Positions 8,078 through 10,047 of a stretch of DNA of 64,000 nucleotides are shown here, in pieces (the stretch's first letter is position 1; every line of letters starts with the position of its first letter). Origin of the DNA: Thermoleophilia bacterium (GTDB taxonomy: Bacteria; Actinomycetota; Thermoleophilia; Miltoncostaeales; Miltoncostaeaceae); contig JADLHW010000063.1 of the NCBI GenBank assembly GCA_020848615.1, forward strand, positions 22,588 through 86,587, in the 5' to 3' direction. A program made the position numbers and the translations under genes. Under the pieces are notes generated by a model. The model was given only the letters and a program-made list of their open reading frames with translations. It did no database searches and was not told the DNA's origin.

Positions 8078-8209
8078 TAGCATCGCGCATCAGCCAGGTC
8101 GAATGCGCCTGGCACGCATCATGCGGGACCGTGGTCGAAGTCGCTCGTAGGGCACCGCCGTACGCGTTTTCACCCTGGATCTCGCCACCTTACATTGGAA
8201 GGAAGCAGC
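8078..8209 (+). promoter_or_regulatory. Promoter and structured 5' leader of the cold-shock gene
   Basis: A TAGCAT -10-like hexamer at 8078 would start a leader of about 120 nt. The leader can form competing hairpins: GCGCAT (8085) with ATGCGC (8103), GCCAGG (8093) with CCTGGC (8108), and ATGCG (8103) with CGCAT (8115). These share bases, so only one can form at a time. Long leaders that change fold with temperature are established for E. coli cspA; a similar role here is inference. Confidence 0.45.
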
Positions 8210-8413
8210 ATGGCGCAGGGCGTCGTCAAGTGGTTCAACGCCGAGAAGGGGTATGGCTTCATCACCCCGGATGACGGTGGAAAGGACCTGTTCGTCCACT
8301 ACTCGGAGATCCAGTCGTCCGGGTACCGCTCGCTCGAGGAAGGCCAGCGGGTCAACTACGAGCCACAGGACAGCCCGAAGGGTCCGCAGGCCAGCCAGGT
8401 CAGCCCACTCTAA
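8210..8413 (+). CDS. CspA-family cold-shock protein
   Basis: Small single-stranded nucleic-acid chaperone of 67 residues with one cold-shock OB fold. RNP1 (KGYGFI) and RNP2 (LFVHYSEI; the usual FVHFSAI) are both visible after the standard start [17 protein letters not shown] 8210 is preceded by a good SD sequence, GGAAGGA, so the track's five extra residues are dropped. It is monocistronic, with a long leader and a strong hairpin after the stop. Csp members range from cold-induced to constitutive, and the sequence does not say which this is. Confidence 0.96.
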
Positions 8414-8488: not shown

Positions 8489-9031
8489 TCAGAACGAGGT
8501 GGGCCCGCGGGGCTCCCTGCCCTCCCAGTCATGGGTGGAGCCGGAGAGCTGCTGATCCCGCTTGAGGCCCATGGCGCGGGCGAAGAACTGGTACGCCTGG
8601 CTCAGCAGGGCGTCCCCCACGTTGAGGGGCGCGCGCCAGAAGATCCAGTACAGGACGTACTGGAAGGGGGACACGGTGCCGATCTTCGGGTGCTTGCTCT
8701 TGGGGACCGGGGGGTGCGCCTGCACCAGCAGGTACGTGGTGCCGGCCTTGTGCTCGGGCAGCTCGCGTTTGTCGATGGGCCACTTGAAGCCCTCGTGGCT
8801 GAGCGTGGGGGGCTGGGTGCCCTTGCGCAGCCAGTCGATCCCGTACTCGAACGACGCCAGGATCACGAAGACCAGGGCGAAGAACACCAGCAGGCCCCAC
8901 CGCGACCAGAGGTGCCCGCTGAACAGCGCGACGACCTCGAGGAACAACACGCAGCCGAGCACCCAGGACGCCGCCCGCCACCACTCCGACTTGTCGTCGG
9001 GGCCGGTCGGCATCTTGGGCGGCGAGCTCAC
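8489..9031 (-). CDS. Hypothetical membrane protein, two N-terminal membrane helices
   Basis: 180 residues of unrecognised family. Two adjacent hydrophobic helices (about 18-60: WVLGCVLFLEVVALF and LLVFFALVFVILASF) are followed by a long hydrophilic part with a WPIDKRELPEHKAGTTYLLVQ segment and an aromatic amphipathic stretch (FQYVLYWIFWRAPLNVGDALL). The GTG start overlaps the stop of the upstream small gene in a GTGA overlap, so the two form an operon. No function is assigned. Confidence 0.8.
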   Translation of the reverse strand: MSSPPKMPTGPDDKSEWWRAASWVLGCVLFLEVVALFSGHLWSRWGLLVFFALVFVILASFEYGIDWLRKGTQPPTLSHEGFKWPIDKRELPEHKAGTTYLLVQAHPPVPKSKHPKIGTVSPFQYVLYWIFWRAPLNVGDALLSQAYQFFARAMGLKRDQQLSGSTHDWEGREPRGPTSF

Positions 9032-9195
9032 TTCGTTCCGATCGTCGCCCTGCCGGAGTTGTCGAGTCTCAGGCCGTCACCCGTCGAGTACATGCACCCG
9101 ACGCCCTTCACGCAGAGCCCCGCGCCGATGAGGCCGTTGGTGACGAGCAGGATGAGGACGAGGAAGAAGCCGATGATGACGAAGACTTTGCTCAC
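9028..9195 (-). CDS. Small single-pass membrane protein (55 aa)
   Basis: Missed as a separate unit by the track, which shows it as the tail of a longer ORF. GTG 9195 gives MSKVFVIIGFFLVLILLVTN, a clear membrane helix after a two-residue cytoplasmic end, then about 30 residues with two cysteines. Its TGA overlaps the next gene's GTG (GTGA). No family is recognised. The divergent HEPN-like/CBS gene begins 79 bp away. Confidence 0.65.
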   Translation of the reverse strand: MSKVFVIIGFFLVLILLVTNGLIGAGLCVKGVGCMYSTGDGLRLDNSGRATIGTK

Positions 9196-9274
9196 AGTCG
9201 GTGCGGTTCGACACCTCGGCGCGGAGTCCTCCCGCGGGTGCCCCCCGGCGGATCGCACCGATAGATTCCCGGCC

Positions 9275-10015
9275 ATGCCGCACCCGGTCCCCCGCGCGAA
9301 CGCCGACCGCTTCCTGGCGGCGTTCCGCACCATCGAGGACCTCCTCTCCCGCGATGCGGAGCGCAACGGTGGCGGGCACCGCCGCGCGTTCGCCGAGCTG
9401 GTGGACGGCTCCGGCCGGCCCGCGGTGCAGCACTTCCGGCGGGAGCTGCGGGAGCTGCAGGAGCTCCGCAACGCGATCGTCCACAAGGCCACGCGGGACG
9501 GCAGGCCGATCGCGGAGCCGCACGACGACACCGTCGAGCTCATCGAGGGGATCGCCCGGCGCATGGCGGAGCCGCCGCCGGCGCTCACGATCGCCGCCCG
9601 CGACGTGATGGTGTGCCACCCGAAGGACGACGTCGGGATGGTCGCGATGCGGATGCGCTCCCGGGGTGTCTCGACGATGCCCGTGCTCGACCGCGGCGCG
9701 GTGGTGGGACTGCTCACATCCGACACGATCACCCGGTGGATGGCCGCGGAGCTGGAGGCCGGCCGGGGCCTGCTGGAGACCGCGCCGGTGCGGGACGTCC
9801 TCGCGCACGCCGAGCACCCGGACGAGCATGCGGTGCTGCCGCCGGGCGCGTCCGCCTACGAGGCGCTCGCCCTGTTCCGCAGGGGCCTGGAGTCGGGCCG
9901 CACGCCGCGGGCGGTGCTCATCACCGCGACGGGCACCGAGACCGGCCGGGTGCAGGGGCTGCTCACCCCGGCGGACATGCCGCGGCTGCTGGAGCTCGCG
10001 GGGGCACTGGGCTGA
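9275..10015 (+). CDS. HEPN-like domain fused to a CBS pair
   Basis: 246 residues. The N-terminal about 95 residues are predicted helical and carry ELRNAIVHKATRDG: Arg65-Asn66 and His70 fit the RN-x3-H motif typical of HEPN ribonuclease domains. Residues about 100-240 form two CBS motifs (VMVCHPKDDVGMVAMRMRSRGVSTMPVLD; then VLPPGASAYEALALFRRG and GLLTPADM), which usually bind adenine nucleotides. ATG 9275 is preceded by TAGATT at 7 nt, a leaderless start. Reading it as a nucleotide-gated RNase or RNA-binding protein is inference; the N-terminus could be only structural. It is followed by a 12-bp hairpin. Confidence 0.75.
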   Translation: MPHPVPRANADRFLAAFRTIEDLLSRDAERNGGGHRRAFAELVDGSGRPAVQHFRRELRELQELRNAIVHKATRDGRPIAEPHDDTVELIEGIARRMAEPPPALTIAARDVMVCHPKDDVGMVAMRMRSRGVSTMPVLDRGAVVGLLTSDTITRWMAAELEAGRGLLETAPVRDVLAHAEHPDEHAVLPPGASAYEALALFRRGLESGRTPRAVLITATGTETGRVQGLLTPADMPRLLELAGALG

Positions 10016-10018
10016 GCC

Positions 10019-10047
10019 CGCCCCGCCGGCGGCCGGCCGGCGGGGCG
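10019..10047. terminator. 12-bp hairpin between convergent genes
   Basis: CGCCCCGCCGGC and GCCGGCGGGGCG form a perfect 12-bp stem with a 5-nt loop, between the stops of the CBS gene and the LEA-like gene. No T-tract; probably bidirectional. Confidence 0.65.

Follow-up and report, generated by a model that had tools for sequence, protein, structure and literature searches.

HEPN domains with an intact motif can act as toxins, as processing enzymes or possibly as RNA binders. A ligand-sensing domain is paired with a HEPN RNase in Csm6 and Csx1, where the CARF domain senses cyclic oligoadenylate made by CRISPR complexes. Fusions of HEPN to CBS domains, some of them with an HD domain, were reported in 2013 by Anantharaman et al., and ligand-regulated RNA stability was proposed for them (PMC3710099). 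DS-11, described with DefensePredictor (Science 2026), is a single CBS+HEPN protein that protects against phage, and its defence requires both the HEPN catalytic residues and Tyr157 of the CBS part, a predicted ATP contact (PMC13092281). In the HepT/MntA (HEPN/MNT) toxin-antitoxin system the HEPN RNase has an Rx4H site (PMC7641770), and in the archaeal factor HibA a CBS module, which binds AMP best, is linked to the translation machinery (PMC13324472).

In this work we analyzed a window of 64,000 nucleotides (the whole stretch of DNA studied here, from a Thermoleophilia bacterium, contig JADLHW010000063.1) and a gene in it that encodes a protein with a HEPN-like and a CBS part. The gene is present in one copy in its own genome and has a syntenic orthologue in a sister species (MAG Ga0077560, LNFL01000017.1), with 87% protein identity and the neighbour order kept. 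The protein very probably combines a HEPN-type active site with a single conserved CBS nucleotide site, and it is likely to be a self-contained HEPN endoRNase that cleaves RNA under the control of an adenine nucleotide. The principle itself was known already, from the HEPN-CBS prediction of 2013 and from DS-11. In the literature searched, the family to which the protein belongs, its conserved residues, its two genomic settings and its link to EF1724 of Enterococcus faecalis appear to be undescribed. The features of the locus are listed below.

9262-9267, forward strand: TAGATT, candidate -10 element ending 7 nt 5' of the ATG; TACGAT at equal spacing in the sister species
9275-10015, forward strand: HEPN-CBS protein gene, intact open reading frame of 246 aa with an ATG start
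9296-9568, forward strand: N-terminal helical domain, HEPN-like, residues 8-98 (AlphaFold; dN/dS of residues 1-99, 0.09)
9335-9349, forward strand: E21...S25, position of the Ex3[KR] motif (family alignment)
9467-9484, forward strand: R65-N66-x3-H70, HEPN Rx4H active-site motif, invariant in 16/16 members
9584-9754, forward strand: CBS1, about residues 104-160 (PF00571)
9776-10006, forward strand: CBS2, about residues 168-244, with G228 and T231-x-x-D234; G228 and D234 invariant in 16/16 members
10020-10030/10036-10046, forward strand: perfect 11-bp GC hairpin, possible bidirectional terminator, conserved in the sister species

The window protein shares with the examples of Anantharaman et al. 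(Pelobacter gi 118580987; alr3009, with HD) the fusion of HEPN to CBS, while some of these examples add an HD phosphohydrolase domain that is absent here, a distinction drawn from their description. With DS-11 (NCBIfam NF053863) it has in common a CBS pair and a HEPN domain in one protein. However, it scored 12.9 bits against the DS-11 model, below the curated cut-off of 260 bits, with a match confined to the CBS part (residues 104-159 against profile positions 78-134 of 305), and all family members scanned fell far below the cut-off (best E = 0.00014). The model has its CBS pair at about positions 77-191 with about 114 residues after it, from which HEPN would follow CBS, an order read from the profile coordinates only, whereas the window protein is HEPN-first. 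As judged from these comparisons of sequence, the window family is distinct from DS-11.

The CARF-HEPN RNases Csm6 and Csx1 likewise join a ligand sensor to a HEPN RNase, but in the window protein a CBS pair takes the place of CARF, and a partner enzyme was not seen. HepT needs a second gene for its neutralisation, whereas none of the neighbours seen in the window or in the sister species resembles a nucleotidyltransferase gene. The hibernation factors HibA and Dri resemble the window protein in their CBS module; they have HPF/RaiA or CBS-only partners and no HEPN domain.

HEPN domains are defined by an Rx4-6H motif with a polar residue after R, located at the end of helix 3 of a four-helix core, and an additional Ex3[KR] motif occurs in many, not all, HEPN families (PMC3710099). 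The RN-x3-H motif placed in the N-terminal domain by the original prediction is present as ELRNAIVH at residues 63-70, with the Arg65 codon at 9467-9469 and the His70 codon at 9482-9484. The 16 members of the family alignment came from Actinomycetota, Chloroflexota and Bacillota-like contigs, and most of them share about 20-33% identity with the window protein. R65, N66 and H70 proved invariant in all 16, so that the conservation expected of Arg65 and His70 was indeed found, and together with G228 and D234 they make up the only invariant columns. Because the three residues are kept in such divergent members, RNx3H is more than a chance occurrence. The Ex3[KR] position is acidic in 15 of the 16 members, with K or R at +4 in 13; the window protein has E21, Ser25 and then Arg26 there, which places them in the first predicted helix and not in the second.

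An AlphaFold model built on an alignment of four sequences (mean pLDDT 63.5; CBS1 poorly modelled) contained helices at residues 8-30, 39-53 (broken), 55-74 and 84-98, and it placed RNx3H within the C-terminal part of the third helix. The pLDDT was about 71-88 over most of residues 11-70 and about 73-81 over residues 81-100. On the proposed HEPN fold the evidence is divided: this model of modest confidence has a four-helix N-domain with the motif late in helix 3, while Foldseek gave no significant HEPN match. Its search of the PDB returned only weak CBS matches and a Csx1 hit that is meaningless alone (E = 2.7); a structure search against viral models found no match, and the N-domain profile matched no HEPN chain among solved structures. 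Pfam gave no significant family match for residues 1-100 of the window protein, and a GAF match (E = 0.007) was judged to be due to chance, as it spans the domain boundary. Across the family, the known HEPN profiles of Pfam gave no significant match, with HEPN_RiboL-PSP at E = 0.015 and HEPN_Apea at E = 0.034 in one member each. By hhalign, RNx3H falls in register with the HEPN motif of RiboL-PSP, a weak match (P = 0.043; reversed control, 0.28), and weak PADLOC matches of the N-domain of other members include PD-T4-5, described as a distant AbiF/D relative.

In CBS domains, the Asp of the [ST]xxD motif normally holds the ribose of the bound adenine nucleotide. The assignment of the C-terminal half as a CBS pair was confirmed by two PF00571 stretches in the window protein (E = 9.9e-11, Pfam), and CBS was detected in 13/13 family members scanned. 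In CBS2 the adenine-nucleotide signature G-x-x-T-x-x-D has G228 and D234 in every one of the 16 members and T231 in 12. The ribose-binding Asp of CBS1 (columns 148-151) is not conserved across the family.

Only five residues are invariant, three of the HEPN site and two of the CBS2 nucleotide motif, and for this reason we favour reading the protein as HEPN plus a CBS2 nucleotide site. The HEPN assignment draws also on the Ex3[KR] pair, on the motif lying late in helix 3 and on the weak PADLOC and RiboL-PSP matches, and a regulated RNase is suggested by the low dN/dS (see below) and by the precedent of DS-11, which needs both HEPN and CBS residues. It can be hypothesized that the CBS pair forms a Bateman module, presumably dimerising, whose single conserved site (CBS2, G228/D234) would report a soluble adenine nucleotide, i.e., AMP, ADP, ATP or a derivative. 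Dimerisation would pair two HEPN domains, with R65, N66 and H70 of both protomers forming a putative metal-independent RNase site at the interface, and the CBS-bound nucleotide would switch this site on or off for RNA cleavage. If a nucleotide at the CBS module gates the RNase site in this way, a separate antitoxin gene would be unneeded.

The gene is flanked by trpB, trpA, a cold-shock-type gene and an aminotransferase gene (named by sequence reading), and further minus-strand neighbours are a 180-aa gene and an 87-aa gene that matches YtxH below threshold. Between the window and the sister species the dN/dS of the HEPN-CBS gene was 0.128, indicating strong purifying selection; in the same two-species comparison three of its neighbours had higher values (trpA, 0.21; the aminotransferase gene, 0.18; the 180-aa gene, 0.29). 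By part, dN/dS was 0.09 for residues 1-99 and 0.155 for the remainder, the CBS half. Therefore, both halves are maintained at the protein level, with the stricter constraint on the HEPN-like one.

The copies of the family fall into two settings, either beside defence genes or among housekeeping genes. One copy (L038) adjoins SIR2 and HerA, genes for a type IV restriction enzyme and for two cytosine methylases accompany another (L130), and a third (L040) overlaps a type IIG restriction-methylation gene by 4 nt. A copy located downstream of HmaB-HmaC, at a distance of about 50 nt, and next to an integrase-like gene (L135:809-7550) is possibly an accessory of the Hma system. In Rhodococcus a copy (L037) is carried by a conjugative plasmid that also has an HNH gene and encodes a helicase similar to those of defence systems. 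A defence function is probable for the copies that adjoin restriction-modification, SIR2-HerA or Hma genes. The housekeeping setting comprises the window, the sister species, several members of another actinobacterial class and two Bacillota-like contigs.

In these two contigs (L042 and L043) the HEPN-CBS gene immediately precedes lspA and rluD, and in L043 it comes after fhs and before pyrR-, permease- and pyrB-like genes. In the numbering of E. faecalis, ef1723 is signal peptidase II (PMC7117660), and ef1721, ef1720 and ef1719 are pyrR, pyrP and pyrB (PMC5383250, PMC2902013). According to this published numbering, EF1724 ('CBS domain-containing protein') is the gene beside lspA, as in L043, and the L043 gene is its presumed orthologue, by gene order and annotation. 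In a Tn-seq study EF1724 was found in 100% of 24 enterococcal species, scored as 'Fitness Important' with a dVal of 0.020 and was among the core genes distinguishing enterococci from Vagococcus (PMC7701990). Such a requirement speaks of importance and not of nuclease activity, and a polar effect on lspA could account for it. The Enterococcus setting points to chromosomal RNA control or a stress response.

These data allow other readings of the protein. Its N-domain might be a helical bundle that merely resembles HEPN, with R, N and H kept for packing or a protein interface, for example; the domain has no significant structure or family match, as this reading would have it, but RNx3H, its predicted position in helix 3, the Ex3[KR] pair and the polar N after R all fit the description of HEPN, which makes a lookalike improbable. 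Two further readings concern the role of the protein. In anti-phage abortive infection of the DS-11 type, infection would alter a nucleotide signal, CBS would bind it, HEPN would cleave RNA and growth would stop. Such a role agrees with DS-11 itself, which combines these two domain types and depends on both sites, with the plasmid and island copies that adjoin defence genes (L038, L135, L130 and L040) and with the patchy occurrence of the family, found in 4 of 397 genomes in a sample of the phylum and in 7 of 250 in one class. It is at odds with the surroundings of the window gene, which are trpB/trpA and aminotransferase genes in an order kept in the sister species, and with the members of another actinobacterial class and the Bacillota-like contigs, which also sit among housekeeping genes. 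In addition, the presumed orthologue in Enterococcus belongs to the core of the genus and is important in broth without phage, and no member exceeds the DS-11 cut-off. We consider abortive infection rather unlikely.

The stable synteny, the dN/dS of 0.13 and the position immediately before lspA-rluD in the two Bacillota-like contigs would suit a housekeeping or stress regulator, in which a nucleotide-gated HEPN cuts or merely binds a specific cellular RNA and so tunes translation or RNA turnover to energy state. The same may be said of the occurrence of EF1724 in all 24 enterococcal species and its 'Fitness Important' score, and fusions of CBS modules to domains that bind RNA or the ribosome are known, e.g., archaeal HibA (PMC13324472). 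However, the strict invariance of R, N and H speaks for catalysis rather than mere binding, this role does not account for the island copies beside defence genes, and L043 is equated with EF1724 by gene order. A regulator of this kind is a plausible role, which we put forward with some doubt. Both roles overlap the nucleotide-controlled RNase mechanism and each other, and the confidences placed in them need not add up to one. In the window organism, chromosomal RNA or stress control is more likely than dedicated defence.

Returning to the nucleotide-controlled HEPN endoRNase, we tentatively suggest that the family is a widespread but sparse group of HEPN-first, CBS-gated RNases, each a one-gene switch from adenine nucleotide to RNA cleavage, which may act as an accessory of restriction, SIR2-HerA and Hma defence islands and may have turned, through domestication, into a core fitness gene of Enterococcus (EF1724) and of the window lineage. 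If the proposed nucleotide control is right, adenine-nucleotide state would directly set RNase activity within one polypeptide, with neither an antitoxin nor a messenger synthase. The family would link a defence-island gene to an apparently domesticated one, and it offers a candidate function for a fitness gene of the enterococcal core whose sole annotation is 'CBS domain-containing protein'. The single well-defined CBS site and the tractable chromosomal member EF1724 make testable the question of the activating ligand, which is shared with DS-11.

Members from the same phylum were L045, L046 and L058-L063, and the full-length plasmid members were those of Rhodococcus (L037) and Candidatus Chlorohelix (L040). 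Degraded or shortened copies were observed on Corynebacterium and Rhodococcus plasmids (L038:4923-5534, L039:4965-5480 and L041:4965-5396). The copy on pBL90 of Corynebacterium glutamicum is broken by an in-frame stop and its N-terminal part is unreadable, and the two copies of Rhodococcus plasmids are shortened and lie beside IS21 genes, suggesting repeated loss. Matches in G058, G038 and G043 were judged to be CBS-only similarity, the plausible gene in L003 was an ordinary 130-aa CBS protein, and low-scoring N-domain matches from the class search were treated as noise.

Two members come from contigs filed under phages, L042 and L043. The stretches L043:3214-10179 and L042:601-2226, whose records (OR846607.1, OR849199.1) were submitted as clones of Enterococcus/Listeria phages from wastewater, contain bacterial chromosomal genes, and both records look like bacterial contigs mislabelled as phage. 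Since the neighbours in them (lspA and rluD; FTHFS and pyr-type genes) are those of a bacterial chromosome, they are not evidence for phage carriage. Motif scans of a viral collection revealed members on two contigs (L081 and L090), and scans of viral contigs with family proteins or alignments returned only the L081 locus again, as L087. In L090 (IMGVR_UViG_3300009048_000003) a single N on either side (6941 and 8672) sets off the family gene and an aldo/keto-reductase-like gene within a contig that has phage tail-like genes. This contig is probably a chimeric scaffold, and it was rejected as phage evidence because the N positions flank the piece with the family gene.

The gene had also been credited with its own leaderless promoter and terminator, and both claims held only in part. 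In favour of the promoter is the equal spacing of TAGATT and TACGAT before the ATG in the two species, where a TAnnnT element without room for a leader fits a leaderless start, as seen in two genomes only; against it, a scan with the sigma-70 consensus gave no match. The hairpin at 10020-10046 is unusually stable (folding energy of the region, -47.4 kcal/mol; z, -3.7) and conserved in the sister species, but it has no U-tract and is thus not a U-tract terminator. Because of this and of its position between convergent genes, it is a hairpin-type terminator at best.

It should be mentioned that both the window (8195-8413) and the Enterococcus-like contig (L043:2832-3044) have a cold-shock-type gene at a distance of about 1-2 kb from the HEPN-CBS gene, which may be a coincidence. 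The divergent neighbour at 9028-9195 on the reverse strand encodes a conserved 55-aa membrane-type protein with a GTG start and has an 80-bp intergenic region in common with the HEPN-CBS gene.
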